Shown here: one piece after another, positions 29,581-53,915 of the stretch
Layout: each line of letters starts with the position of its first letter
Position numbering within the stretch: the stretch's first letter is position 1
DNA from: Acetomicrobium thermoterrenum DSM 13490
Lineage (GTDB): Bacteria; Synergistota; Synergistia; Synergistales; Acetomicrobiaceae
Assembly (NCBI RefSeq): GCF_900107215.1
Contig: NZ_FNPD01000008.1
Location: 1 to 64,000, forward strand
DNA: 64,000 nucleotides
Direction: 5' to 3'
Made by a program: the position numbers and the translations under genes
Notes under the pieces: model-generated
Told to the model about the DNA's origin: nothing
Databases searched by the model: none
What the model saw: the letters and a program-made list of their open reading frames with translations, nothing else

Positions 29581-31140
29581 TTAGGTTCGACCCTTTTTCT
29601 TTATGTACGCTCTCCATGTGGTTGCCCAACGCTTGGGATCATCCAGCGCAGACTCATCGGCCAACTTGTGGGATGCGCACTTATGAGGCGCATTTTTCAC
29701 AACTTCAGGATTGGAGTAGGCCTCATCGCGAATGTGTTTTAAAACTGCTGCGTATTCATCCAAATCCTCCTTACCGTAGCTTTCACAGGGCTCAAGCGTC
29801 ATGGGCTCGGGAACCACCCAGGGATGATGGCTCGTCCAGTAATGCTGCAATCCAAAGTCGCCCACTCGTCTCATGATATCCGTCGTGCTAACTCCCGTCG
29901 CCTCGAACAACTTCTGCCAACAGTAACGGGCTTCCTCAAGGCGTCTTCTTCCTGGTGCGTAAGGTACGTCCATTTCAGGGATCAATTCCTGCAGCTTCTT
30001 TTGCAGGTAATTGTGGTTTATCGTAGATATCTCGGATACTTCCTTGAGGTATTCCTGACCTACGGCCCTGATCCAGGCATAGGCGCGCACCAATACCCCT
30101 GCAGGACCTTGAAACTGCCTTATTTTGCCCACGCTTTCCGGCCTGTCGAAATCGAGGTAATACTTTTCCCCGTCGTATTCGACCGTTGGGAAGGGCAAGT
30201 ACTTTGCCAGGTAATCCCTTACGCCTAGTGCACCTAAGCCTGGCCCCGAACAGCCGTGAGGAGTGCCGAAGGTCTTGTGAATATTGAAGTGGCACATGTC
30301 AAATCCGGCCTCGCGTGCCCTTGCTATTCCCAGAAGGACGTTTGCGTTTGCCTGGTCGTAAAAGCACAGGCCGCCTGCATCGTGTACTATCTTGACGAAT
30401 TGGTCGATCTCCGTGTTGTATATCCCCGTATCCTCGGGGTTGGTTATGAACATCCCGGCGGTCCTTTCCGATACGGCAGCCTTGACCGCTTCTATTGAAG
30501 GATAGCCGTTTTCGCTGGGAGGAAGGATTATCAGCCTGAAGCCAGCCGTTGCAGGGGCTGCGTGATCACAGGGGTGCGTAAAGGCTGCGCTTATGATTTC
30601 CCTGCGTTTATCCAACTCGCCGCGATCGCGATGATAAGCCCTCATTATGCTTGCTGCCGTATAAACGGCATGAGCTCCGCCCTGTGGATGCAAACTGAAC
30701 TTGTCCATCCCGGAGATTTCTTTGAGGATCTCCTCGAATTCGTAATACATTTGAAGTATCCCTTGAACGGTATCCACATCCTGCCAGGGATGAAGGGAAG
30801 CTATACCCGGATGTGCCGCCAGCTCTTCGTTGATCCTGGGGTTATATTTCATCGTGCACGTGCCTTGGCTTATGTCGTTACACAGGTTTGCTCCAAGCGT
30901 CTCCTGGGCAAGGTGGATATAATGCGCTAAGACCCTCTTTTGATCTAGCTCGGGCAATGCCGGAAGTTGCTCTCGAAACATCCCCTTTGGCACAAGATTT
31001 TTTGCATCGCCCGCCTCCTTCTTGATTTCCTCGTCCGGAGCCGGAGGGATTAGGCCCCTTCGCCCCGGGACGGAGAGCTCAAATATTATCGGCTCGTTCC
31101 AATGGGCCTGATGGAAATTTCTCAATTTAACGTCCCCCAT
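29581..31140 (-). CDS. gcvPB: Glycine dehydrogenase (decarboxylating) subunit 2
   Basis: 519 residues, the PLP-binding half of the two-subunit P-protein. The PLP lysine is in HFNIHKTFGTPHGCSGPG near residue 280. It decarboxylates glycine onto the lipoyl arm of GcvH together with GcvPA. ATG 31140 behind ggagggg, 19 bases after gcvPA. No gcvT, gcvH or lpd lies in the window, so the rest of the system is elsewhere. Confidence 0.93.
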   Translation of the reverse strand: MGDVKLRNFHQAHWNEPIIFELSVPGRRGLIPPAPDEEIKKEAGDAKNLVPKGMFREQLPALPELDQKRVLAHYIHLAQETLGANLCNDISQGTCTMKYNPRINEELAAHPGIASLHPWQDVDTVQGILQMYYEFEEILKEISGMDKFSLHPQGGAHAVYTAASIMRAYHRDRGELDKRREIISAAFTHPCDHAAPATAGFRLIILPPSENGYPSIEAVKAAVSERTAGMFITNPEDTGIYNTEIDQFVKIVHDAGGLCFYDQANANVLLGIARAREAGFDMCHFNIHKTFGTPHGCSGPGLGALGVRDYLAKYLPFPTVEYDGEKYYLDFDRPESVGKIRQFQGPAGVLVRAYAWIRAVGQEYLKEVSEISTINHNYLQKKLQELIPEMDVPYAPGRRRLEEARYCWQKLFEATGVSTTDIMRRVGDFGLQHYWTSHHPWVVPEPMTLEPCESYGKEDLDEYAAVLKHIRDEAYSNPEVVKNAPHKCASHKLADESALDDPKRWATTWRAYIKKKGRT

Positions 31141-31159
31141 CTCATATCCCCTCCTACCA

Positions 31160-32566
31160 TTACATGCCTACGACGGAAGCCAGAGCATCCGCCAGCATGT
31201 CTATGTCCTCTTTGCTGTGAAGCTCCGTCACGCAAAAGAGGGCGCTTTGCCCCATTTCAGGGAAGTCCTTCGACAGGTCTTTGCCGCCAAATATTTTGTG
31301 GTCAAGCAGGGCTTTATTTATCTCCGCTACCGTCTTTTTTGTCCCGTCGAAATTGACCGTAAATTCTTTAAAGTGATAGGAATCAAAGAGCGGCGCCTTA
31401 ACTCCCTTGACGGACGAAAGCTTTTTAGTGGCATAAGAAGCCCTCTGAAGCAATCCCTCGCCTAATTCATTCATTCCCTGCGGTCCCATCAAAGCCATGT
31501 AGACGCCTGCGACGATGCCGTGAAGCTGGGCCATCGTACCCAAGAAGTCCTTGGCCTTATCGCGAGATGCATAAGACGTCCTCTCGTACAAGACCTCTCC
31601 AAATCCGTATTCTCCCTCTTCCACTGTCTCAGCTATTCCAAAAAGCAAAGAGGGATACTCCGCCACGAACTTAGGCTCATCAGGGGTGGCTATGAATCCT
31701 CCCAAGCCGCCGCCATAGCTCATGGGAATACCCATAGGCTGCACGTCGCCACAGGCGAAATCGGCACCGTAGTGGGCAGGCGGTTCAAGCACGCCTAAAG
31801 AAAGAGGATCCACGCCCACCGACAGCAACGCTCCCTTAGAATGAAGAAGGTCGGCTATCTCTTGTCCCTGGCTTTCAATGACGCCGAAGAAATTGGGGTT
31901 TTCCATATACAAGACGCAAACATCGTCGGACAGTTTGCTCTTTAAGTCGTCAACGTCGAGCAAGCCGGTTTTCGGATCGTACTTGACCGTCTCTATATCT
32001 GAAGTAGAAGACCATGCGTAGTTTTCGATGCAGGACAGTCGCTCAGGGCTGATCGATGCAGCTATCAATGCCTTGCCTCTTCCCGTCATGCGCGATGCCA
32101 TCCTTACGGTGGTGGCACATGCCATGGCCCAATCGTAGGTAGGAGTGTTAACCATATCCATGTCGACCAGTTCACCTATGCAGCTTGCGTATTCAAACTG
32201 GGCCTGAAATTTGCCGTGATCTGCGAAGGCCTCTCCTACGTAGGCGGACAAAAATTCATCCCTTTCCATTATGGTCTTACAAACTGCCGGCACGTAATGC
32301 TGCCAGCATCCGCCGCCCAGAAAGTTTAGGTATTCCTCGCAATTTTTGTTCTTGGAAAGCAGGTTCGTTACGTGTTTTTTAAGCTCGTATTCGGATGTGA
32401 TTGCCTTGGGGATGTTTAGAGGCCTATTAAGCCTTAAATGTTCTGGAATTTGACCGAAAATATCCTCCGCGCTTTCAATCCCTATTTCCTTCAGCAACTC
32501 CTCCTTAATTTCAGGAACGGAATTGGGGATATAAGGATGAGCCCTTCTCTTTTCCTTCTCTTCCAT
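31160..32566 (-). CDS. gcvPA: Glycine dehydrogenase (decarboxylating) subunit 1
   Basis: 468 residues, the N-terminal half-type subunit: HPYIPNSVPEIKEELLKEIGIESAEDIF at the start, FLGGGCWQHYVPAVCKTI, then YASCIGELVDMDMVNTPTYDWAMACATTVRMASRMTGR. Lacks the PLP lysine, as expected. Located upstream of gcvPB, 59 bases after the radical SAM gene. In an amino-acid fermenter the enzyme can run either in glycine breakdown or in synthesis. Confidence 0.92.
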   Translation of the reverse strand: MEEKEKRRAHPYIPNSVPEIKEELLKEIGIESAEDIFGQIPEHLRLNRPLNIPKAITSEYELKKHVTNLLSKNKNCEEYLNFLGGGCWQHYVPAVCKTIMERDEFLSAYVGEAFADHGKFQAQFEYASCIGELVDMDMVNTPTYDWAMACATTVRMASRMTGRGKALIAASISPERLSCIENYAWSSTSDIETVKYDPKTGLLDVDDLKSKLSDDVCVLYMENPNFFGVIESQGQEIADLLHSKGALLSVGVDPLSLGVLEPPAHYGADFACGDVQPMGIPMSYGGGLGGFIATPDEPKFVAEYPSLLFGIAETVEEGEYGFGEVLYERTSYASRDKAKDFLGTMAQLHGIVAGVYMALMGPQGMNELGEGLLQRASYATKKLSSVKGVKAPLFDSYHFKEFTVNFDGTKKTVAEINKALLDHKIFGGKDLSKDFPEMGQSALFCVTELHSKEDIDMLADALASVVGM

Positions 32567-32625: not shown

Positions 32626-34533
32626 TCAGGGCATCACCTCTTCTTCAGTCACAAGGCTCAATAACATCTCACCTTCCTTTAATACCATGCCATATTTTAT
32701 TAAATTGATAATAGATTGCTTAATCTTATCTTCATCTTCTACGAAACCTTTTTCGCTTAAACTTAACGCGATAGCCTCAATGGTCACGGGCTTACTGCAA
32801 GCTTTGCAAACTGCCAATGTAAAGGGATCAAGCTTTATGTGCCATTCGCCCTCACCGGACCTTCTGTCGATTATGAGCCCTTCTTCGTCGCGTGAAAAAC
32901 AAAGCGAACTTTTGGGATGAATTTCCTTCCAGAAAAATATGTTTTCCATAAGTTCATGGGTATACTCGGCGCAATTTTGGGGGAGCTGATATTCAAAGGT
33001 AAAAAAAGAGGCAAGATTGCTCACTGATTCATCATCAAAGGGGTAAACGTAAGAATAGGATGGATAGGGACTTACGTCCTTTATACCATATCCTGAGGGA
33101 TCTTCGAAACAGGGACTAAAGCGGTCTAGCCTGAATTGACCAGCATAGTTGGGCGGATGTAAATGAGTCAACAGGGGCACTAGCTTCGCCATGTTTTCGT
33201 AAGCCTCCACAGGTTCGCCCGGGAAACCCCATAGAAAGTTCCACACCGGCATTATTTTTGCTTCGCGACACCCTTTGAGAAATGCTATGTTTTGAAGTAC
33301 ACTCACTCCTTTGCCAATTATGGACAAAACCCTTGAGCTTAAGGATTCAATGCCGACTTCAAGCCTTTTTAGCCCACAGGCAGATAGCTTCTCAAGTAAT
33401 CCAAAGTCAATGTCCGGCCTTACCTGGAGATAAATGATTTCCGGCTTTTTTTCAAATGCGGACAGCGCATCCGCCAAAGCCTCGAGCATTTCCTTATCGG
33501 CCGATTCGTCGCTTGCGCATAAACTAAAGCCCTCGTATTTGCTTGCAAGAGTTCTTACTTCTGAGACTATTCTGCCTCTGTTTTTCTTTCTGAAGACGAG
33601 CGTCTCGCTCGATTGGCCGCAAAAGATACACCTTTTTTTCTGGCCCCAGTAACAACCCCTGGACATCTCGAAAAACAACCTCGGCTTTACTCGCGAATCG
33701 GACCTTCTTTTTCTATAAATGTTCGCGAAATCATCGTAATCTGGAATTGGTACCGAACCCATATCCATCTCCAAAACATGACGGTAATGATCAGAAAATT
33801 TTTCACCTTCGCTTTTCAGATTCATAGGAGTTACAATTCCATCTACCTTGGACAGGCCGCCCAAGTCGAAACCTTCAAGGCAAAGACCGACGAATTTTTT
33901 AAATGAAGTATCTCCCTCTCCAAGGCATATGGCATCCACGAAGGGGTGTTTCGCCAAAAATTCCAGGCCCATCGCTCCTTTGCAATTGGCTCCACCAAAG
34001 ACCACTGTGGTGTCTGGGAGAACCTCTTTTATCCTCCTTGCCAACGCCAAAGAGGCGACCTGCTGATGAAACATGCTTGTGAAAGCTGCTATTTTCGGCC
34101 TTTCCCTTGCGACGACCTTTGAAATTTCTTCTAAAAAAGAGCCTGCCGAGTTTTGAACCTTTAACAGTTCATCGGAAAGATGAGCGTCAACGCCAGGTTT
34201 ATCGTATGGTGCTTTATGCTCCTTTAAATTTCCTATGAGCACTTGGTCAACATATTCCTCGAATGTAGGAATATTATTACCATATAGCATTTCGGCAAAC
34301 AGCCTGTCTCCAAGCAAATCTACAATATGCCAAGTAGATATTTTATCATACAAATCTACACCGATCTTTTCAGAAAAAGTAACGTTGAAATCAAAAACCT
34401 TGACGTTGAATTCATCTTTCAAAGCGCTTTTTAAAATACCGAGGGCAAAGGAAGGTTGCCTAAAACTGGCGAAGGGCATGTTGATCAAAGCGACATCCAG
34501 GTTGGCTTTTGCTTTTGGTATTGATAAGATCAT
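32626..34533 (-). CDS. B12-binding radical SAM protein resembling RiPP maturation radical SAM protein 1
   Basis: 635 residues. N-terminal cobalamin-binding-like domain (VALINMPFASFRQPSFALGILKSAL ... VVFGGANCKGAMGLEFL ... AICLGEGDTSF), then the SAM cluster motif in SRGCYWGQKKRCIFCGQ near residue 300, then VGIESLSSRVLSIIGKGVSVLQN and WNFLWGFPGEP. The RGC-W-G-x-K/H-x-x-C-x-F-C-G spacing is that of the rSAM_ocin_1 family that modifies ribosomal peptides. The C-terminal 100 residues (DPFTLAVCKACSKPVTIEAIALSLSEKG...) look like a winged helix of the PqqD/RRE kind. Its ATG overlaps the YwlG-like stop. No precursor peptide gene is visible, so its substrate is open. Confidence 0.75.
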   Translation of the reverse strand: MILSIPKAKANLDVALINMPFASFRQPSFALGILKSALKDEFNVKVFDFNVTFSEKIGVDLYDKISTWHIVDLLGDRLFAEMLYGNNIPTFEEYVDQVLIGNLKEHKAPYDKPGVDAHLSDELLKVQNSAGSFLEEISKVVARERPKIAAFTSMFHQQVASLALARRIKEVLPDTTVVFGGANCKGAMGLEFLAKHPFVDAICLGEGDTSFKKFVGLCLEGFDLGGLSKVDGIVTPMNLKSEGEKFSDHYRHVLEMDMGSVPIPDYDDFANIYRKRRSDSRVKPRLFFEMSRGCYWGQKKRCIFCGQSSETLVFRKKNRGRIVSEVRTLASKYEGFSLCASDESADKEMLEALADALSAFEKKPEIIYLQVRPDIDFGLLEKLSACGLKRLEVGIESLSSRVLSIIGKGVSVLQNIAFLKGCREAKIMPVWNFLWGFPGEPVEAYENMAKLVPLLTHLHPPNYAGQFRLDRFSPCFEDPSGYGIKDVSPYPSYSYVYPFDDESVSNLASFFTFEYQLPQNCAEYTHELMENIFFWKEIHPKSSLCFSRDEEGLIIDRRSGEGEWHIKLDPFTLAVCKACSKPVTIEAIALSLSEKGFVEDEDKIKQSIINLIKYGMVLKEGEMLLSLVTEEEVMP

Positions 34534-35087
34534 TTCTTGTAGTAAGAGGGGTATTGAGCCCTCTCTCCTCCAATTAATTTCGGTCTCGTTCTTGCCATGA
34601 CCAGGTTGGCAGCGCCAATCTTTTTAATCTCGCTCCTGACCGGGACAGCAACATGTTTGAGGTGCATTCCTATCATTGTATCTCCAATGTCGATTCCCGC
34701 ATGACCCCTTATGCCTTCAACTACCCTTGGATCTTCGAATTCTCCGTAAGCCGTCACCGCCAGGGCACCACCTGCTTTGAGGTGGGGCAGGACGGTAACA
34801 ATCTCGAGCTGATATTTCTCAGCGCACTCTCCCTCTACGACAAGAGATCTGTTCAAATGCTCACAACACTGCACTGCGAGGTATAAATCAAATTTCCTGA
34901 CAAGAGGCTTAATGCCATCCATAACAGCCTTGGCAATCTCAAGATTCGATGCCGAACCTATCTTTTTTCCCAAGATCTCGCTGGTACTGCATCCAACGAC
35001 GAGTATGTCCTTTGATTTAAGCTCGCTAACGGACAAAAGTTCTGACAGTGCCCTGTGTAGGAATGACGTTATTTCACTTAACTCCAC
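34530..35087 (-). CDS. YwlG-like UPF0340/TIGR01440 family protein
   Basis: 185 residues, GTG start. ILVVGCSTSEILGKKIGSASNLEIAKAVMDGI and AVQCCEHLNRSLVVEGECAEKY are the family hallmarks; the C-terminus HLKHVAVPVRSEIKKIGAANLVMARTRPKLIGGERA is also typical. Function unknown across the family; conserved Cys-Cys-Glu-His may form an active site. 22 bases downstream of the NAD-kinase-like gene and overlapping the radical SAM gene. Confidence 0.82.
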   Translation of the reverse strand: MELSEITSFLHRALSELLSVSELKSKDILVVGCSTSEILGKKIGSASNLEIAKAVMDGIKPLVRKFDLYLAVQCCEHLNRSLVVEGECAEKYQLEIVTVLPHLKAGGALAVTAYGEFEDPRVVEGIRGHAGIDIGDTMIGMHLKHVAVPVRSEIKKIGAANLVMARTRPKLIGGERAQYPSYYKK

Positions 35088-35109
35088 GCCAAAACCTCCT
35101 CTTTTAAAT

Positions 35110-36243
35110 TTAAGCTGAGACTTTCATAATGCGTTGCTCGAGATATCCCGTAACCACTCTAATATATCCGCAGAGTGCCCGATCCAGCTCTTCGTCTCCC
35201 GTGTCGACCAGAAGGGGATTATGGCCGAAGGCCGATACCTTATTGCGCGTCGAAATTACGATGAGGTTGTCAAGGCCAACCTTTCTTATGACCTTTGGAC
35301 TGATCTGTTGATTGCCCCTTCCAAATATATATCCCTGTCCCCCAATTACCGTGACGACTATAAAGGCTTCTTTGGCATCCGATAAAATTTCGAGCAACTT
35401 TTCTTCGTCGGCATCGAAGGTTACAAGTCGCTTGCCCTTGGCGACGTCAACACCAAGCAACGTGTAGCCTTCTCCCAACTTCTCTTTAATGGCCCTCGTT
35501 GTTGTGCCGGGGCCCAAAATGTAAAGGGCATCCTTGTGCTTCTCCATATGATCCAAAATGTAATAGGATATTCCCTCCAGGTCGATCGCGTCAGAAGCTG
35601 CTTGCCCCGCCTTCTTGCTTTGAACGAAAGTCCTCTCGTGAGGAATGAACAAATATCCGTAAAGGGCAGCACTAACCCGGCCTTTGCGGAAGGCCTCTTC
35701 GTCTATATCCATGACTTCCGCTTCCTTTACATCCTTTGTCTTTCCCTGCAAATAAAGGAGAGCTAGTTCGCCCGCTCTCCTTGGATTTATTGCAAATACG
35801 CCGGAATGGATTTTAACGCCCGCCGGAATTCCCAAAACAGGTTGCCTTTTTTCTTTTATAGCCGAATATATGTCTCTGGCAGTTCCATCTCCGCCCGCGA
35901 ACAATAAAAGTTCAACGCCGTAATCTGCTATTTCTCTTGCCGCCTTCTTTGTGTCTTCCGAGGTCGTATTTCCCGGGGTAATCTTGCCTATAACGGTAGG
36001 GTTAAAACCTGCATCTTTTGCCTCGATCTCGCCCATTTCTCCACCGTATGTGACTATCTCTATTTCGTTTTTTAAGGGGGCTAGGCGGAGGAGGGCCTCT
36101 ACGGCCTTTTTGGGCGCCTCAGCTATCGCCCCCCTTTCCCTGCAGATCCTCAAGACCTCCTCGCCGTCGGTACCTTTTAAACCCAATCTGCCTCCCATGC
36201 CGGCAATGGGATTGACCACAAGCCCCAGTCTATGACGAATCAT
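35110..36243 (-). CDS. ATP-NAD kinase-like protein (COG3199/AcoX type)
   Basis: 377 residues. LGLVVNPIAGMGGRLGLKGTDG at the start and LLLFAGGDGTARDIYSAI (the GGDGT motif of NAD/diacylglycerol kinases) near residue 105, followed by PAGVKIHSGVFAINP. The extra C-terminal domain (VIGGQGYIFGRGNQQISPKVIRKVG) is that of the AcoX-like group. Likely binds ATP and NAD or a keto compound; the true reaction is unknown. First gene of the operon running to gcvPB. Confidence 0.78.
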   Translation of the reverse strand: MIRHRLGLVVNPIAGMGGRLGLKGTDGEEVLRICRERGAIAEAPKKAVEALLRLAPLKNEIEIVTYGGEMGEIEAKDAGFNPTVIGKITPGNTTSEDTKKAAREIADYGVELLLFAGGDGTARDIYSAIKEKRQPVLGIPAGVKIHSGVFAINPRRAGELALLYLQGKTKDVKEAEVMDIDEEAFRKGRVSAALYGYLFIPHERTFVQSKKAGQAASDAIDLEGISYYILDHMEKHKDALYILGPGTTTRAIKEKLGEGYTLLGVDVAKGKRLVTFDADEEKLLEILSDAKEAFIVVTVIGGQGYIFGRGNQQISPKVIRKVGLDNLIVISTRNKVSAFGHNPLLVDTGDEELDRALCGYIRVVTGYLEQRIMKVSA

Positions 36244-36634: not shown

Positions 36635-37141
36635 TTAAACTAATTCTCCATTGCGCAATAGCCCCCTTTGCTTGTAAACATCAGCAGCTTCACGAACCCA
36701 TTCCGCACATTTCTTCGCATGATAAACGTTTTCAAGCTCTTCTGCCATCTTAAGCAGCTCATCTTCGGTAGAACGCCGCGGTCGTAAGGCCTCATATATT
36801 TCCAAAAGGCGCTGGTCAGGGATCTGAGTCATCTCGGCTGCACGCTGCAAATTATTGGCAAAACATGGCCTTTTTGCCTCTAAAGCTATCTTTGCCTGTA
36901 GTTCCAGCGTTAAGGGTGATATGCGAAATTCTTCCGGTGCTACACTCCCCTTTAGCATTCCATCAAATGTCACTTCTTTAAACGGACGACCTTTGGGAGT
37001 CTGAAGCAATTCCGGCCTTTTTTCTCCTAAGGGATAGTCTGCAATGGACACCTCAGCAGAATCGGAATCTGTCTTTTGGTTGCATTGCATCTCATCCATG
37101 ACTTGACGTATTATAGTCTTTAAAGTCTCTTCAGAAATCAT
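36635..37141 (-). CDS. Second B12-dependent diol/glycerol dehydratase, small subunit
   Basis: 168 residues of the PduE type. Starts with an amphipathic helix (ISEETLKTIIRQVMDEM) like the encapsulation peptides of microcompartment cargo; conserved core DYPLGEKRPELLQTPKGRPFKEVTFDGMLKG, NNLQRAAEMTQIPDQRLLEIYEALRPRRSTEDEL. ATG 37141 follows ggagg at 9 bases and lies one base after the medium-subunit stop. Last gene of the operon. Paralogous to the subunit at 50984-51526. Confidence 0.88.
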   Translation of the reverse strand: MISEETLKTIIRQVMDEMQCNQKTDSDSAEVSIADYPLGEKRPELLQTPKGRPFKEVTFDGMLKGSVAPEEFRISPLTLELQAKIALEAKRPCFANNLQRAAEMTQIPDQRLLEIYEALRPRRSTEDELLKMAEELENVYHAKKCAEWVREAADVYKQRGLLRNGELV

Positions 37142-37142
37142 A

Positions 37143-37805
37143 TCATACAGCCTCCTTTTTCCGTAGTTCCAGTTCCATCGACGGAGTTTCCTCTTGAACA
37201 TATTTTACTTCTTCCATATGCATAATTGCTGACTTAGCTTGATAACGTGGCCTCGACATCGGGTCCTGTAATGTAGGAACAGGCTGAGGTGTTTCACCTT
37301 TGGCGTATTTGGCAGCATTTTTCCCAATGGCCCGAAAGACTTGAAGGGTCATCACCGGCGCTTGAGGAAACAATTCCAAGTTGGATAACGGAAGAAGGTC
37401 ACGCTGATGAATAACAGCCGTACCACGGGTCTGCAAGCCGATGCCTACCCCGGAACCGCTTAATTTTGCTGCCTCATGACCAATAAAAGCACAATCTGCA
37501 GTCTTAAGCACACGGACGATCCTGGGTTTGACTCCTTCCTCCTCTATTCCAGCCATAATCTCTCTAAGAACTGCCATAACATCGATCCCCGTAATAGTTT
37601 TCGTTAAACGTCGACCGTAAGCTGGACTAATGCCGATTACTACTTCATCACGCTGTATACCACGTTTTGCCGGCCCTATTTCCCTAAGTTCAAATTTATC
37701 GTCAACATCATGAAGATTATTTACAGAAGACACTTCTTTTGCGTCTAAGTTTCTTATAACTTCTCCCACAATTTTTTTAAGTAATTCTTTGTCAGAAATT
37801 TCCAT
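37143..37805 (-). CDS. Second B12-dependent diol/glycerol dehydratase, medium subunit
   Basis: 220 residues of the PduD type: N-terminal helix EISDKELLKKIVGEVIRNLDAKE (probable encapsulation and solubility helix), then EIGPAKRGIQRDEVVIGISPAYGRRLTKTITGI, FIGHEAAKLSGSGVGIGLQTRGTAVIHQRDLLPLSNLELFPQAP (B12-contact region) and GKNAAKYAKGETPQPVPTLQDPM. ATG 37805 chosen for spacing from aggagag. Thirteen bases after the large subunit. With its partners forms the catalytic hexamer. Confidence 0.88.
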   Translation of the reverse strand: MEISDKELLKKIVGEVIRNLDAKEVSSVNNLHDVDDKFELREIGPAKRGIQRDEVVIGISPAYGRRLTKTITGIDVMAVLREIMAGIEEEGVKPRIVRVLKTADCAFIGHEAAKLSGSGVGIGLQTRGTAVIHQRDLLPLSNLELFPQAPVMTLQVFRAIGKNAAKYAKGETPQPVPTLQDPMSRPRYQAKSAIMHMEEVKYVQEETPSMELELRKKEAV

Positions 37806-37818
37806 GACCATCTCTCCT

Positions 37819-39495
37819 TTAAATCAGGTCTTCTGGTCCAAGCTCCATGGGTATCTTTTGGATCTCTTTCCACTTCTCATCGGACACCCGGTAACCTGTT
37901 CCTGGACCCGAATAATCGTTTGGTTCATTTACTGAGCTGATGACGTGGAAGTTTTTATCGATAATGGCTGAGGTCTGTAAATAATCTCCAGCAATTCGCT
38001 GCTTGAGGACTTCAAAAATGCCTCTTGCCGCATCTGTATAGCCATTTTTTGCTAGTATCTTAGCGATATCAATTCCAGATATCCCATCTTCTACTAACCG
38101 TTGTGCAGCTTTCATATCAGCGACCATGTCGCGCTCTGGCATTTCACGGCTTCCGTTGCAATAAATAGCCGCTTCGATTTCATCATCTGTTATGGAGGGT
38201 AAACCCAATTCGTTGAAGACGCATTGTATAGCCCTAGCCGCTCGACTGCGTATTTCAATTGCCTGTTCTTCCTTTATCGGCCGCAGACCACCGTCGACCT
38301 TGAGGTCGCGTTGCAAAACCATCCAGTCATAATAATCGGCCGTATCCCAATTGGATCCAGCAAACATGTTATCGTAGTTCGGCGTAGCGCTATATCCTCC
38401 ACATATAAAATCCGTACCTGGGAGCAATTGCATCAGCGTACGGGCTACACGCCTGATATCGGAATGCGTAAAGCTCTGATCATTACCGGTTACCGTCTCC
38501 AAATCCAAGATGGCGGCAGCTAAATTTTCTGCCAAGATAGCTCGAATACCGCCCGGCAATGCGGCTCCCACCCCAATGCAACTCTTACATCCGTTCTGCG
38601 TGCCTTGAGCGCCATCGCCCTTGGTGACCATAAGAGTCCTTACTTCCAAATAGAGCATCGATTTGCCATCCGGGTATCCCATAAGTAATTCTGCCGCTCC
38701 ACCTGAAGTAAATCGTGTTTTAGCACCTCGAGATTGGTAGGCAGAGCATAGGAACCCTTTTGACCAAGGGGTATCGTCGCCATCCACAAAGACCCGCTCT
38801 GTCCCGTAAGTGGAAATGGTCTCCGCATACGAAGTCCAGCCTGACATCGCTTGCCTAAGTTCTACGCTCTCTTCCATACTGCAGCAGGTAAGAACTCCAG
38901 GACGGCCAATATGCCCACCTACTAAGAGAGAAATAGCATTAAGAGGACCGTAACGAGTATTAGCTACGGTAGTTTCCAATTCATCGAATCCATATAATGC
39001 CCCTTCGGCAGCATCTGCTGCTATCAATACAGGGTTGTCACGGACATTCGTAACGTGGCATTGTTCAGCCGGGCGCTTACGGGCACGCATCTTGTACATT
39101 GCCATCATCAACTCAACTACGTTTAACAGGCTAAGCACTTTAGCGATCTTAGCAGGGGTAAGGGCGCCAAAAATTTTGATCAACTCAGACCTTGAAACTG
39201 CAGGATCGACCAACATATAGGCCAGCTTTGAACAATCAATCGCCATCATTTCCGAAGCCAAGGAAACGTCGATCGTATGATCAGCTATGAATCTGTCAAT
39301 CATATCAAACTTCTCGCGCCTAACCCCGTCCATTTCTACAATTTTGCCGTTAACGACTTCTACGCTGGGTTTTGGATCAAATGGGCTATCCATAGCAATT
39401 AATCCAGATTCCGGAATTTCCTTTAAGAAACCATCCAGTGCAACTGGACGCTGCTCTAAGATTTCAAATCTCTTCTGTCTCTTGCTCTTAGCCAA
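37819..39495 (-). CDS. Second B12-dependent diol/glycerol dehydratase, large subunit (altered pocket)
   Basis: 558 residues of the PduC family, TTG start at 39495 behind aaaggag. Catalytic residues keep Klebsiella numbering Gln141, His143, Glu170, Glu221, Gln296, Ser301, Asp335, Gln336 and Phe374. But QNGSVSCIG of the classical enzyme is QNGCKSCIG here (Ser299 to Cys, Val300 to Lys), and the ISSGYS loop is ICGGYS (Ser362 to Gly); Gln267 is Leu and Ser264 is Ala. These positions line the substrate or adenosyl site, so the substrate probably differs from 1,2-propanediol. It follows a glycerol dehydrogenase gene by 62 bases. No second reactivase accompanies it. Confidence 0.88.
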   Translation of the reverse strand: MAKSKRQKRFEILEQRPVALDGFLKEIPESGLIAMDSPFDPKPSVEVVNGKIVEMDGVRREKFDMIDRFIADHTIDVSLASEMMAIDCSKLAYMLVDPAVSRSELIKIFGALTPAKIAKVLSLLNVVELMMAMYKMRARKRPAEQCHVTNVRDNPVLIAADAAEGALYGFDELETTVANTRYGPLNAISLLVGGHIGRPGVLTCCSMEESVELRQAMSGWTSYAETISTYGTERVFVDGDDTPWSKGFLCSAYQSRGAKTRFTSGGAAELLMGYPDGKSMLYLEVRTLMVTKGDGAQGTQNGCKSCIGVGAALPGGIRAILAENLAAAILDLETVTGNDQSFTHSDIRRVARTLMQLLPGTDFICGGYSATPNYDNMFAGSNWDTADYYDWMVLQRDLKVDGGLRPIKEEQAIEIRSRAARAIQCVFNELGLPSITDDEIEAAIYCNGSREMPERDMVADMKAAQRLVEDGISGIDIAKILAKNGYTDAARGIFEVLKQRIAGDYLQTSAIIDKNFHVISSVNEPNDYSGPGTGYRVSDEKWKEIQKIPMELGPEDLI

Positions 39496-39557
39496 ATTTG
39501 AACACTCCTTTCGCAATTACTGCAACTTGAACAACTTATGATGAGGCTAATATCTTT

Positions 39558-42582: not shown

Positions 42583-43965
42583 CTAAACTATGCGAAACGC
42601 TCCGTGAAGGACGCAACGGCGCAGCCTGCAGAAGGACAGCGGCGTAGTCGGGCCATCTCCGGTGGTCGTTCCTATAGTAAATGCCGTGGGGCAATCGCCT
42701 CCAACGCCTATAGATGCAAATGAGGGTGCATTTTTGACGAACATCGACGTCTCCATTACCTTTGCCATGTCGCTCATGTTGTCTATGTTGGTGCTGTGGA
42801 TTATGGCAGAATGCTTGAAGCCGTGTTCTACGCGCTTTGCCATGGCCAGTCCCTCTTTGAAATCGGCAACCCTTACCATGGCAAGTATTGGCATCATGAG
42901 CTCTTCCTGGACGAAGGGATGTCTTTCGTCACATTCGACTAATATAAGCCGCACATTGGGAGGAGGGGTAATGCCCAACTTTTCCAAGTATACTGAGGCA
43001 TTTTTGCCAACCATATCCTTTTTTATCTTGTGATCCTTTGTCAACACCAGGTCGACCAAAGCGTCTATCTTCGATCGATCCTTTAATTCGTACGCCCCGT
43101 TATGGCACATTAGATCTTTCAGCTCGTCGGCGATACAATTGACGGCTATCAGTTCCTTTTCCGCGATGCATGGAAGGTTGTTGTCGAAGGAAGCACCGGC
43201 GATTATGTCTTTAGCAGCTTTTTCGAGATGCGCCGTCTCGTCGACCAGGACCGGAGGGTTACCTGGGCCTGCTCCTATGGCAGGCTTGCCTGAAGAAAGG
43301 GCTGCCTTTACCACTCCGGGGCCTCCTGTGGCCGATATCAGCTTAATGTCCGGATGGAACATTAACTCCTTTAAGCTATCCAGCGACGCATCGCTCAATA
43401 CCGACACCACCTCGACTGGCGCCCCTTCCTCGGCCAAAATGTCTCTGATCAGCTCTACGGTTCTTAAGGTACAACGCAATGCACCTGGGTGGGGTGAGAA
43501 TACTACCCCGTTGCCTCCCGACAACATGCAGATAGTATTGTTTATTACGGTAGCGACCGGATTGGTGGAGGGCGTTATCGAGGCAATGACTCCGAAGGGA
43601 GCCAACTCCTCCAGTATAAGGCCGTTGTCTCCTGATATTGCCTTGGTAGTGAAGTATTCGGGTCCTGGCGTTTTGGTAATTGCAAGTTTTTTCTTTAATA
43701 TCTTATCATCTAAACGGCCCATATCCGTATCGTCTCGCGCAAGCTTGGCCAGCTCTTCAGCGTGGGGCAGGAGCTTCGACTTGATCGCCGATAGGATTTT
43801 AGTTCGAGCATCGAGGTTGTAATCCCATTGCCATGCCCTTTGGGCTTCGACGGCAGCTCCTACGATTTCCCCAACAGAAGTTCGACCTTTGGCCTCCTGA
43901 GCCAGTTCCTTCGTTACCTTCTCGACAATTTTTTTAACAAGATCATCTACCCGAACTGATTCCAT
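42583..43965 (-). CDS. pduP: CoA-acylating propionaldehyde dehydrogenase
   Basis: 460 residues of the aldehyde dehydrogenase family. The catalytic Cys is in FDNNLPCIAEKELIAV near residue 240. The first 20 residues (ESVRVDDLVKKIVEKVTKEL) form the PduP encapsulation helix. ATG 43965 follows aggggggg; the earlier in-frame start would overlap pduO. Converts propionaldehyde, or 3-hydroxypropionaldehyde, to the acyl-CoA using NAD. Confidence 0.92.
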   Translation of the reverse strand: MESVRVDDLVKKIVEKVTKELAQEAKGRTSVGEIVGAAVEAQRAWQWDYNLDARTKILSAIKSKLLPHAEELAKLARDDTDMGRLDDKILKKKLAITKTPGPEYFTTKAISGDNGLILEELAPFGVIASITPSTNPVATVINNTICMLSGGNGVVFSPHPGALRCTLRTVELIRDILAEEGAPVEVVSVLSDASLDSLKELMFHPDIKLISATGGPGVVKAALSSGKPAIGAGPGNPPVLVDETAHLEKAAKDIIAGASFDNNLPCIAEKELIAVNCIADELKDLMCHNGAYELKDRSKIDALVDLVLTKDHKIKKDMVGKNASVYLEKLGITPPPNVRLILVECDERHPFVQEELMMPILAMVRVADFKEGLAMAKRVEHGFKHSAIIHSTNIDNMSDMAKVMETSMFVKNAPSFASIGVGGDCPTAFTIGTTTGDGPTTPLSFCRLRRCVLHGAFRIV

Positions 43966-43976
43966 AAAGACCCCCC

Positions 43977-44918
43977 CTAACGCTCCCACGCTCTGACCAT
44001 GGCTTCGGCAACGCTTACATCTTGCTCAACAGATCCTCCGCTTACTCCAACTGCACCTACAATCTCCGCACCATCCTTCAGCAGCAGACCCCCACCGAAT
44101 ACCACCAGCTCGGGGTCATTTTGAAGACCGTAAAGATCCTTGCCCGGTTGCACTAAGCGAGACAATGCCTCAGTGGACATCTTCAGCTTTATGGCGGTAG
44201 AGGCTTTTTTGGGCGCAAGACCCAGACTGACTTGAAGAACGCCCTCCATTCTCTCGAAAGCGATCAAAAAACCGTAAGAATCACAAACTGCCATGGCCAT
44301 CGGAACTCCTATCTCTTGTGCCTTTCTGCGCCCCTCATTTATCAGTTCGCGCGCCCTCTGTGCATCAAGGCCACTTATGCCTTTGTTCATTTTGGTCACC
44401 ACCAATTTTGTAATTTTTCTTATAGCGCTCTCCCAGTAAGCCGAAACAGCCAGGGCATATATATAATCGGAAAGCCTATTCAGATATCTATAGGTCTCTT
44501 CGCCGATTAAATTGGACTCAAGGGACTTAAGGCCCACTCTTTCGGCCCTTCTTGCAAAGGCCCTCGCAAGGTGAAGAGCTGCGCTTGTTTCATCGTCTCC
44601 GGGAAGAACGAATTTATTATAAAAAGGGTATTCACTGATAAGATGATCGATACGTCTTTCCAGTTCGGTTGACGACACCTTTCCTTTATCGGCCTTCCCG
44701 CGAGCAATGTAAGCCATGACCTCTATCAATTCAGCCTGAAGTTCTGCAATCCAATTCGAAACCTTAGAAGGTGCCTTTGATCTAGCGATTCCCAAAGCAC
44801 AGGTCACTTCATCCAAGGTGCCGTTTAAGATGATCCTTGGATCGTCTTTTCTGACCTTGGTACCATCGTAGAGAGACGTTTCTCCCAAGTCGCCCCTTTT
44901 GGTATATATTCTCACCAT
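43977..44918 (-). CDS. pduO: PduO: corrinoid adenosyltransferase fused to a GlcG/HbpS domain
   Basis: 313 residues. The N-terminal 175 residues form the PduO-type ATP:cob(I)alamin adenosyltransferase (YTKRGDLGETSLYDGTKVRKDDPRI, LDEVTCALGIARS, ARAFARRAERV); the rest is a GlcG/DUF336 domain (AQRARELINEGRRKAQEIGVPMAMAVCDSYGFLIAFERMEG), giving the full-length PduO layout of the enteric protein. Makes AdoCbl for the two dehydratases. It ends 12 bases before the pduP start. Confidence 0.92.
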   Translation of the reverse strand: MVRIYTKRGDLGETSLYDGTKVRKDDPRIILNGTLDEVTCALGIARSKAPSKVSNWIAELQAELIEVMAYIARGKADKGKVSSTELERRIDHLISEYPFYNKFVLPGDDETSAALHLARAFARRAERVGLKSLESNLIGEETYRYLNRLSDYIYALAVSAYWESAIRKITKLVVTKMNKGISGLDAQRARELINEGRRKAQEIGVPMAMAVCDSYGFLIAFERMEGVLQVSLGLAPKKASTAIKLKMSTEALSRLVQPGKDLYGLQNDPELVVFGGGLLLKDGAEIVGAVGVSGGSVEQDVSVAEAMVRAWER

Positions 44919-50983: not shown

Positions 50984-51526
50984 CTATTCCGGTATATCGC
51001 CACGTAAAAGTTTACGTCGTTCGTAAACAGAGACCGCTTCTCTAACGAAGGTGGCACATGCCGTTGCGTTATATTTGTTCTCAAGCTCATCGGCAATTGC
51101 CATGAGTTCTTCCTTGGTCGATCTATGTGGTCTTAGGGCGTTATAGATCTCCAACACCCTATCATCGGGCACTTTCGTCAATTCGGCAGCTCTTCTTAAA
51201 TTTGATGCCACCTGACGCCTTCCGGCCGACTCTGCTATTTCCGCCTGCATCAACAAGGCTTCCGGAGCAATTCGAAAGTCCTCAAAGGTAGCCTTGCCCT
51301 GCAAGACAGCATCTAAGGTGAGTTCACTAAAGGCATTGCCCCTTGGACTCTTTATGGTGTCGGGCTTTTTGGAACCTAAGGGATAATCCTTTACGGAAAG
51401 GCTCCCTTTCTGTCCCGTGCTTTCTTTTGGAGTGGGGGCCTTTCCTTCTCCTCCCGAAGAACTCATACCCTTTAAGACCTCTTTTACCAGTTCAGCTATC
51501 ATTTCTTCATTAAGCATTTGAGCCAA
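50984..51526 (-). CDS. pduE: B12-dependent diol/glycerol dehydratase, small subunit (first copy)
   Basis: 180 residues; TTG start at 51526 behind agggggcg. N-terminal amphipathic helix (LNEEMIAELVKEVLKGM), linker, then VKDYPLGSKKPDTIKSPRGNAFSELTLDAVLQG and NLRRAAELTKVPDDRVLEIYNALRPHRSTKEEL. Third subunit of the first dehydratase. Confidence 0.92.
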   Translation of the reverse strand: MAQMLNEEMIAELVKEVLKGMSSSGGEGKAPTPKESTGQKGSLSVKDYPLGSKKPDTIKSPRGNAFSELTLDAVLQGKATFEDFRIAPEALLMQAEIAESAGRRQVASNLRRAAELTKVPDDRVLEIYNALRPHRSTKEELMAIADELENKYNATACATFVREAVSVYERRKLLRGDIPE

Positions 51527-51541
51527 CTTTAACGCCCCCTC

Positions 51542-52201
51542 TTATTCGAAACGAACTTCAAGCTCCATCGGTGACTTGGAGCGGTCTAAATAGCGCACTT
51601 CTTTATTGTGTAATAGTGCTGCAATACCCTGATAACGAGGACGAGCCATGGGATCGTTTCTTGTCGGAACCGGAGTGGGGTGTTCTCCTTTAGCATATTT
51701 CGCCGCATTGCGGCCTATTGCCCTGAAAACTTCGGCATCGAGAAGTGGTGCCTGGGGAAAAAGTTCTAAATTGTTCAGTGGGTTTAGATCCCGTTGATGT
51801 ATGACCGTCGTGCCCCTGGACAATATACCGATACCTATGCCCGAACCGGACAACTTAGCGCCCTGGTGAGCTATGAACCCCACATCGGCAGTGTGATATA
51901 CGCGCACAAGTCTTGTATTAAGACCTTCTTCTTCAATACCTGCAAAGACCTGCCTCAAAACCTCGCTATGAGGGACTCCCACTATCGTTTCGGTAAACAC
52001 GGTTCCAAAGGCCGGAGGGATGGCAACTACCACTTCCTTTGGATCGGTCCCCTTCTTAGCTACACCAACCTCCACTAAAGTCATTTTCCCTCCCCTTTGA
52101 GGCAGAGTGGCCGTGGGGGAAGACATCTTGCCCTGCTCTCCCATTACTTCTTGTAAAACTTCCGCTATTACCTTTTTAATCAATTCTTCGTTGACCTGCA
52201 T
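51542..52201 (-). CDS. pduD: B12-dependent diol/glycerol dehydratase, medium subunit (first copy)
   Basis: 219 residues: N-terminal helix VNEELIKKVIAEVLQEVMG (encapsulation), then LVEVGVAKKGTDPKEVVVAIPPAFGTVFTETIVG, GFIAHQGAKLSGSGIGIGILSRGTTVIHQRDLNPLNNLELFPQAP. Contacts the B12 lower face. 13 bases after the large subunit. Confidence 0.92.
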   Translation of the reverse strand: MQVNEELIKKVIAEVLQEVMGEQGKMSSPTATLPQRGGKMTLVEVGVAKKGTDPKEVVVAIPPAFGTVFTETIVGVPHSEVLRQVFAGIEEEGLNTRLVRVYHTADVGFIAHQGAKLSGSGIGIGILSRGTTVIHQRDLNPLNNLELFPQAPLLDAEVFRAIGRNAAKYAKGEHPTPVPTRNDPMARPRYQGIAALLHNKEVRYLDRSKSPMELEVRFE

Positions 52202-52214
52202 TGTCTTCCCCTCC

Positions 52215-53885
52215 CTATACGTCCTCGGGCCTTATCGCCCAGGGGATTTCCTTTATTTCCTTCCAACGCTCTTCAGATATCCTGTAGCCCGTGCCAGGGC
52301 CCTGGTAATCGTTGGGGTCGTTGACGGCACTGTAAACTGTACCATCGCTGTCTATCCATGCAGATGTCTGCAAATAGTCTCCGGAAACCCGCTGGCGCAT
52401 CATCATTACGATAGCTTCAGCTATATCTCTGAAACCCCTTTGAGCTAGTATTTTAACAATGTCAATGCCGTTTATACCCTCGTTCAAAAGCCTTTCCGCC
52501 GCCCTCAAGTCCTCAGTCACGTTTCTGTCCGGCAAATCTTTGCTGCCGTTAGCATAAGTTGCAGCTTCGACTTCGGCATCGGTTATAGGCGGAAATCCCA
52601 GCGCATCGTAAACGGCCTGGAGCGCTCTTGCAGCCTTATTGCGGACAGCGACTACTTCTTCTTCGGAGACAGGCTTATTACCGCCATCGACCTTGAAATC
52701 ACGCTGAATAGCCAGATAATCGTCCATATCCTCAATATCCCAGTTGGAACCGGCAAACATGTTGTCGTAATTGGGTACGGCTGAATAACCGGAGAAGATG
52801 AGATCTGTCCCAGAGAAAAGCTGAGGTATGGTGCGTGCAGTTCGTCTCAAGTCCGAATGCGAGAAGGTCTGGTCGTTACCTGAAGCAACTTCCATATCAA
52901 GCGTAACGGTGATCAAGTTTTCTGCCGCAACGGCCCTTAAACCGCTTGGAACGGCTCCGGGAACTCCTATGCAGGAGATAGAGCCATTCTGCAGACCCTG
53001 CACTCCGGCGCCTTTGGTTATCATAACGCACCTGGTTTCAAGATATAGCATGCTTTTCCCCTCGGCTGCACCCATCTGAACCTCTGAACCGGTGCCGCTG
53101 GTGAAGCGCATTTTCAGCCCTCGACTTGCATAGGCAGATGCCAAAAAAGCTTTAGACCAAGGCGTATCGTCCCCGTCTATGAACACGCTTTCGGTGCCAT
53201 ATACGGATACCGTTTCAGCGTAACTCGTAAGCCCTCTCATTCCTATCTGCAGTTCGAAGGCCTCTTCAAGAGCGCATTGGGTGAGCACCCCTGGCCTGCC
53301 AGTCTGAGAACCTATCAGCAATGAGAGCGCGTTTAAAGGAGCATATCGATTCACGCCCACCGTTGTTTCCAGTTCCACAAATCCCCTCAGGGCTCCTTCT
53401 GCAGCATCGGCGGCAAGCTGGACAGGATGATCCTTTGCGCTCGTGATGTGAGCCTGGTTTGCAGGAGTCTTGCGGGATCTCATTTTGGATATGCCCATCA
53501 TTATTTCAACGATGTTCAAACAGTCCATTACGTTGTTTATCTTGGCCGGCGTCAAACCCTGAAAGATTTTTGTGACTTCATTTCTCGATACATTGGGATC
53601 CACCAACATCTTCGCCAGTTCTAGATCACTTTTTGCCATGGCTTGCGGAGCTATCTCGATATCGATAGCATAATTAGCAATGAACTGTTCTATCATGTCG
53701 AAGTCATCGCGTTTTTTGCCATCCATTTCGGTAATTTTGCCGTTTTCGATCTTTATTGACGGAACTGGGTCCTTGGGGCTTCCCATTGCATAAAGTCCTA
53801 CATCCACCCATTCGGCAATAAAACCGTCTTTATGTACCGGCCTATTGTTCAGTACTTCAAATCTTTTACTCTTCTTCTCAGCCAA
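52215..53885 (-). CDS. pduC: B12-dependent diol/glycerol dehydratase, large subunit (first copy)
   Basis: 556 residues from TTG 53885 (ggaggggg upstream). All catalytic residues of the Klebsiella enzyme are in place: Gln141/His143 in NQAHITS, Glu170, Glu221 (SYAETVS), Gln296/Ser301 in QNGSISCIG (Val300 is Ile), Asp335/Gln336 in NDQTF, Ser362 in IFSGYS and Phe374. Dehydrates 1,2-propanediol to propionaldehyde and/or glycerol to 3-hydroxypropionaldehyde. Together with pduDE and reactivase genes it forms the standard set. Confidence 0.94.
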   Translation of the reverse strand: MAEKKSKRFEVLNNRPVHKDGFIAEWVDVGLYAMGSPKDPVPSIKIENGKITEMDGKKRDDFDMIEQFIANYAIDIEIAPQAMAKSDLELAKMLVDPNVSRNEVTKIFQGLTPAKINNVMDCLNIVEIMMGISKMRSRKTPANQAHITSAKDHPVQLAADAAEGALRGFVELETTVGVNRYAPLNALSLLIGSQTGRPGVLTQCALEEAFELQIGMRGLTSYAETVSVYGTESVFIDGDDTPWSKAFLASAYASRGLKMRFTSGTGSEVQMGAAEGKSMLYLETRCVMITKGAGVQGLQNGSISCIGVPGAVPSGLRAVAAENLITVTLDMEVASGNDQTFSHSDLRRTARTIPQLFSGTDLIFSGYSAVPNYDNMFAGSNWDIEDMDDYLAIQRDFKVDGGNKPVSEEEVVAVRNKAARALQAVYDALGFPPITDAEVEAATYANGSKDLPDRNVTEDLRAAERLLNEGINGIDIVKILAQRGFRDIAEAIVMMMRQRVSGDYLQTSAWIDSDGTVYSAVNDPNDYQGPGTGYRISEERWKEIKEIPWAIRPEDV

Positions 53886-53915
53886 TTTGTTCGCCCCCTC
53901 CGTATTCAACAATCC

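Follow-up and report, generated by a model that had tools for sequence, protein, structure and literature searches.

A PoyC-type radical SAM methyltransferase gene in a metabolic operon of Acetomicrobium, possibly repurposed to act on a protein of that operon

The known members of the cobalamin-dependent radical SAM methyltransferase family considered here are tied to natural-product peptides. PoyB and PoyC, from the polytheonamide pathway, carry an unusual Cx7Cx2C spacing of the cysteines that bind the iron-sulphur cluster (PMC11285071; PMC5682303). In PoyC, as in the archaeal enzyme Mmp10, the methyl group comes from methylcobalamin and the radical from SAM, and methylation takes place at an sp3 carbon of an amino-acid residue (PMC5682303, PMC8828468). 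The family is catalogued as TIGR03975 (rSAM_ocin_1), and we found no literature on its biochemistry under that name. Here we describe a member encoded in the window, that is, the whole stretch of 64,000 nucleotides from Acetomicrobium thermoterrenum DSM 13490 that was analysed, where the gene sits in the middle of an operon of metabolic appearance.

The gene, which we will call rSAM, starts with ATG and encodes 635 residues on the minus strand (32,626–34,533). The protein matches TIGR03975 with 499 bits (E 1.9e-149) over positions 1–605 of the 606 in the profile, against a cut-off of 281.85, and the second-best NCBIfam model reaches 50 bits. This gap excludes a chance match: judged by its sequence, rSAM is a genuine, full-length member of the family, as the first-pass annotation had proposed, and a placement in an unrelated group of B12-dependent radical SAM enzymes is ruled out. 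The radical SAM core spans residues 290–452 (33,178–33,666, minus strand; Pfam PF04055, 51.2 bits, above the cut-off). A B12-binding domain is matched at residues 130–213 (33,895–34,146, minus strand; PF02310, E 1.4e-6), with 28.6 bits, which is 3.5 bits short of its cut-off of 32.1. The cluster-binding motif, located from the sequence and the family alignment at 33,619–33,654 (minus strand), reads S-R-G-C294-YWGQKKR-C302-IF-C305-G, which bears out the motif recognised earlier and gives a Cx7Cx2C spacing that is identical in every aligned TIGR03975 member.

The end of the protein (residues 541–635; 32,629–32,913, minus strand) is putatively a PqqD/RRE-like winged-helix domain. A profile built from the C-terminal ~95 residues in 11 members of the family aligned with the PqqD profile in hhalign collinearly over 54 columns, with a score of 29.6 (reported probability 55%), compared with a best score of 18.4 among 60 column-shuffled controls. 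Searches with single C-terminal sequences gave weak matches to PqqD for one of the 11 and to Lant_dehydr_N for three. Two AlphaFold models of low confidence (pLDDT 46 and 48), poor because the input consisted of four closely related sequences, show strands followed by three helices in the order of a winged helix. A fold search with the C-terminal model returned winged helices, including the RRE of TbiB1, with TM-scores of 0.54–0.60 and no E-value below 0.2. A profile search against PDB sequences also produced a ferredoxin-like subunit at low score, which we judged spurious. The C-terminus is probably RRE-like, with moderate support from these profile and model comparisons: the score against PqqD lies above all shuffled controls, in keeping with the original assignment, but the probability of that alignment is middling and the winged helix is modelled at low confidence. 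Since an RRE-like C-terminus is a trait of the whole TIGR03975 family, it is in any case not by itself proof of a peptide substrate in Acetomicrobium.

The retained domain would nevertheless suit an ordinary RiPP maturase with a precursor gene at some other place in the genome and a leader of no family described so far. The same reading is favoured by the many sampled relatives that have a precursor gene next door; outside Synergistota the relatives were sampled from plasmids only, and those with adjoining precursors include Ruegeria (Os1348-type), Sinorhizobium (Nif11), Methylomagnum (CefA) and S. globosus (pheganomycin type). On a plasmid of Paracoccus denitrificans, an ORF of 130 residues with a Cys-rich, repetitive C-terminus lies directly upstream of the TIGR03975 gene (L143:3556–3948) and is likely a RiPP precursor. 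Similarly, a TIGR03975 gene of Streptomyces sp. NBC_01450 is preceded immediately upstream by a pair of short ORFs related to each other (MEKTVVENDPQ... and MEKTVVHNNPQ...; L144:3455–3940), and these are likely unannotated precursors.

In Acetomicrobium the surroundings are different. No precursor-like or conserved small ORF was found in the short or flanking gaps of the operon, in agreement with the earlier remark that the locus has no precursor peptide. Beyond the locus, a search of the six Acetomicrobium genomes for the described leader families NHLP (TIGR03793) and Nif11 (PF07862) likewise found none, nor was a C39 peptidase/exporter found in any of the six. Four other Synergistota genomes hold TIGR03975 relatives, at about 26–35% identity, and there C39 is present in 4/4 and Nif11 in 3/4. 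At three of the loci in other Synergistota (L050, L051 and L052) the TIGR03975 gene adjoins genes for a protein of 310–326 residues, whose family was not recognised, and for one of 467–474 residues, which may be a second maturase.

The sequence of rSAM itself also departs from the family. We defined as near-invariant any position with at least 93% conservation across 14 other TIGR03975 members, a small sample that includes related rhizobial and Streptomyces sequences; there are 40 such positions. All five Acetomicrobium orthologues keep the cofactor motif and 34 of these positions, and all five are changed at the other six (W77R, F270A, W295Y/F, N308S, Q392E and Y509S), each of which is invariant in 14/14 of the other members. 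In the family tree no stem is longer than that of the Acetomicrobium clade (1.4), and this clade stands apart from the other Synergistota members. Such a placement would agree with an acquisition of its own, although the deep forks are weakly supported. With the missing leaders and peptidase, the altered family-invariant residues and the fixed place of the gene in a metabolic operon all counting against it, the ordinary RiPP maturase seems to us rather unlikely.

That operon consists of five genes on the minus strand in the order NADK'-DUF436-rSAM-gcvPA'-gcvPB', separated by 22, −4, 59 and 19 nt. NADK' (35,110–36,243) is an NAD-kinase-like gene with PF01513 and PF20143 matches. The DUF436/TIGR01440 gene (YwlG, UPF0340; 34,530–35,087) encodes a clear member of its family, related to structures 1v8d and 7z06, and its stop codon shares 4 nt (ATGA) with the rSAM start. 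On the other side gcvPA' (31,160–32,566) begins 59 nt downstream of rSAM and is followed after 19 nt by gcvPB' (29,581–31,140), so that the location of rSAM between a YwlG-like gene and gcvPA, with translational coupling, is as first described. The window also holds an extra set of genes for the large, medium and small subunits of a diol/glycerol dehydratase (36,635–39,516), between gldA and the NAD-kinase-like gene; the set is missing from that spot in three of the congeneric genomes (G003, G004 and G066), and a second one is found at 50,984–53,912.

The locus had initially been taken for a glycine-cleavage operon, and this has to be abandoned. The canonical gcvT-gcvH-gcvPA-gcvPB-lpd operon lies on a different contig (G000:C7; L109), and gcvPA' and gcvPB' are only 38–42% identical to its gcvPA and gcvPB. 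Both exceed the NCBIfam cut-offs, with 485 bits to NF001696 against 663 for the canonical copy and 537 bits to NF003346 against 790, and the PLP lysine motif HKTF is kept. On these comparisons the rSAM operon is not a glycine cleavage operon, and GcvPA'/GcvPB' belong to a second family, which we call type II. It occurs at some 60 places in Synergistota. Type-II gcvPA/gcvPB usually adjoin an AcoX-like NAD-kinase gene and short-chain dehydrogenases in the sampled Synergistota neighbourhoods (L091–L120), and the same widespread module is seen in the window at 29,581–32,566 and 35,110–36,243; we found no literature on GcvP with AcoX-like kinases. Neither gcvT nor gcvH was recognised beside the type-II genes in these neighbourhoods. 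Most genomes with only the type-II pair lack gcvH and gcvT entirely, including genomes that are single-contig or about 99% complete (G013, G052, G154, G048, G044 and G149), and the type-II reaction there cannot therefore be classical glycine cleavage.

Could rSAM serve all type-II GcvP proteins? We rejected this, since other modules lack it: in the sampled neighbourhoods neither an rSAM nor a DUF436 homologue was found beside type-II gcvP except at the rSAM-linked locus, and G004 holds, besides its rSAM-linked module, an ordinary type-II one that has no rSAM. A modification by rSAM is thus not generally needed by type-II GcvP. The rSAM-linked protein is, however, unusual within type II. When 39 type-II GcvPB proteins are placed in a tree, the GcvPB' linked to rSAM form one clade on the longest inner branch (0.77). 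Of the 125 columns that are near-invariant in type II, 15 are altered in this clade, compared with at most 5.5% in every other sequence. Inside the clade GcvPB' is highly constrained (98% identity between G000 and G004). By tree and column counts, GcvPB' linked to rSAM is the most divergent type-II protein.

The seat of rSAM among metabolic enzymes could also mean that it acts on a metabolite of the type-II GcvP pathway, for example by C-methylation of an amino acid, in which case the C-terminus would be a relic or a docking module. More distant cobalamin radical SAM families whose names refer to work on small molecules (BchE and HpnJ) do match rSAM, if weakly, and the changes at family-invariant positions would fit such a shift of substrate as well. 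On the other hand, the C-terminal domain is still 60–63% identical between the most distant orthologues, near the 65% of the whole protein, and we know of no TIGR03975 member that acts on a free metabolite. We regard a small-molecule substrate as unlikely.

Comparison between Acetomicrobium species adds a further link between the upstream genes. The rSAM proteins of G000 and G004 are only 69% identical, and we dropped fast evolution as the explanation, since dS and the nucleotide identity profile attribute this value mainly to a divergent-allele tract. The tract lies at about 33,020–36,100 (minus strand) and takes in most of NADK', all of DUF436 and the rSAM codons up to about 505, leaving the rSAM C-terminal domain and gcvPA' outside. 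Between these two genomes, nucleotide identity drops from about 0.95 outside the tract to 0.54–0.85 inside, and dS is about 0.2 for most flanking genes but about 1.1 or saturated for NADK', DUF436 and rSAM. Because the sharply bounded tract runs through all three genes, they were probably exchanged as a single piece, through homologous recombination in which the donor was diverged but bore the same gene block, and their joint exchange weakly suggests a joint function. A second divergent-allele tract between Acetomicrobium species is found at 42,583–44,918 of the window, over pduO and, to a lesser extent, an aldehyde dehydrogenase gene. In the comparison with G001, dS approaches saturation for all genes, and the dN of rSAM is 0.25, roughly four- to fivefold the value for gcvPA'/gcvPB' (0.05–0.07). 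The faster divergence of the rSAM protein speaks somewhat against a substrate within the operon, since a variable or separate substrate would suit it just as well.

Among 188 Synergistota genomes, rSAM orthologues (65–97% identity) are present only in Acetomicrobium, in five genomes (G000, G003, G004, G066 and G001), and the gene order NADK'-DUF436-rSAM-gcvPA'-gcvPB' is kept in 5/5, so the arrangement noted from the single sequence is a conserved one. Apart from these five, the only Synergistota genomes with DUF436 are four that belong to one other genus, and in them no rSAM gene could be recognised beside it; within Acetomicrobium the two genes strictly co-occur. The sixth genome of the genus, G002 (80% complete), lacks rSAM, DUF436 and type-II gcvPA/gcvPB and has the canonical gcv operon. 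A scan of genome contigs with the rSAM protein alone gave matches only in Acetomicrobium/Synergistaceae loci, and a search of viral contigs and phages brought nothing useful. The first-pass annotation had offered a housekeeping offshoot of a peptide-modifying family, or an action on a remote protein or peptide: the suggestion of an offshoot, with a protein or something encoded elsewhere as its target, survives, but 'housekeeping' is too strong, as within Synergistota the gene is confined to a single genus.

The strict co-occurrence of DUF436 and rSAM, together with their translational coupling, brings in another possible role, in which the pair would take part in making or attaching a modification on a protein, like the one carried by EF-P. 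The B. subtilis protein YfkA is a radical SAM protein too, but to our knowledge it lies outside the TIGR03975 family. In that species ywlG and yfkA each raise 5-aminopentanol on EF-P and loss of ywlG lowers EF-P modification, genetics that would favour such a role, although the authors assign both genes to precursor supply (PMC5885033). No EF-P gene was seen near the rSAM locus, and we consider an EF-P-like modification very improbable. The YwlG protein of S. aureus binds HPF and is able to make up for lost glutamate dehydrogenase activity (PMC9522360).

The reading that we prefer, tentatively and with somewhat less than even confidence, is that rSAM is a repurposed PoyC-type methyltransferase of the TIGR03975 family whose most likely substrate is a protein encoded in the same operon. 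In this view Acetomicrobium would have acquired a cobalamin-dependent radical SAM C-methyltransferase of the PoyC type and built it into the five-gene operon. By analogy with PoyC, methylcobalamin would be its methyl donor and SAM its radical source, the RRE-like C-terminal domain would grip a segment of the target protein, and that target, GcvPA'/GcvPB' or DUF436, would be C-methylated for its function, along the lines of Mmp10. Adjacency in an operon is no proof that a protein is modified by rSAM. A narrower form of the proposal, plausible but more doubtful, would make rSAM a PoyC-type counterpart of Mmp10 outside methanogenesis, a RiPP-family enzyme that C-methylates an enzyme of a new pathway based on the GcvH-independent, glycine-decarboxylase-like pair, with YwlG as partner. 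If repurposing is true, a peptide-less member in a conserved metabolic operon would show a promiscuous peptide modifier turning into a dedicated protein modifier, and the rSAM operon offers a test case in a cultured genus. The locus also points to a genetic partner of YwlG, a protein of unsettled function, and to a widespread GcvP-like pair of Synergistota that cannot belong to classical glycine cleavage where GcvH and GcvT are absent.

How does the locus compare with the known systems? With the other RiPP maturation radical SAM C-methyltransferases of TIGR03975, rSAM shares the full-length match and 34/40 near-invariant positions, and it differs from them in its six substitutions, its long stem branch and its lack of a precursor. 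Compared by motif and layout, it resembles PoyC and PoyB in the Cx7Cx2C motif and in a layout with a putative cobalamin-type N-terminal domain followed by the radical SAM domain; PoyB and PoyC, however, act on the proteusin precursor of their own cluster, while none was found for rSAM. The GcvPA'/GcvPB' pair shares with GcvPA/GcvPB of glycine cleavage the passing of the NCBIfam cut-offs and HKTF, but it belongs to the type-II clade, has no gcvT or gcvH as neighbours and has related pairs in genomes that lack both. The target of Mmp10 is methyl-coenzyme M reductase, in which it C-methylates an arginine (PMC8828468), and the likeness would lie in the proposed mode, a cobalamin radical SAM enzyme modifying a metabolic enzyme; Mmp10 belongs to archaeal methanogenesis and probably to a different radical SAM family. 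Finally, the DUF436 protein is a clear counterpart of YwlG of Firmicutes, but in Acetomicrobium its gene is coupled to that of a PoyC-type radical SAM enzyme.
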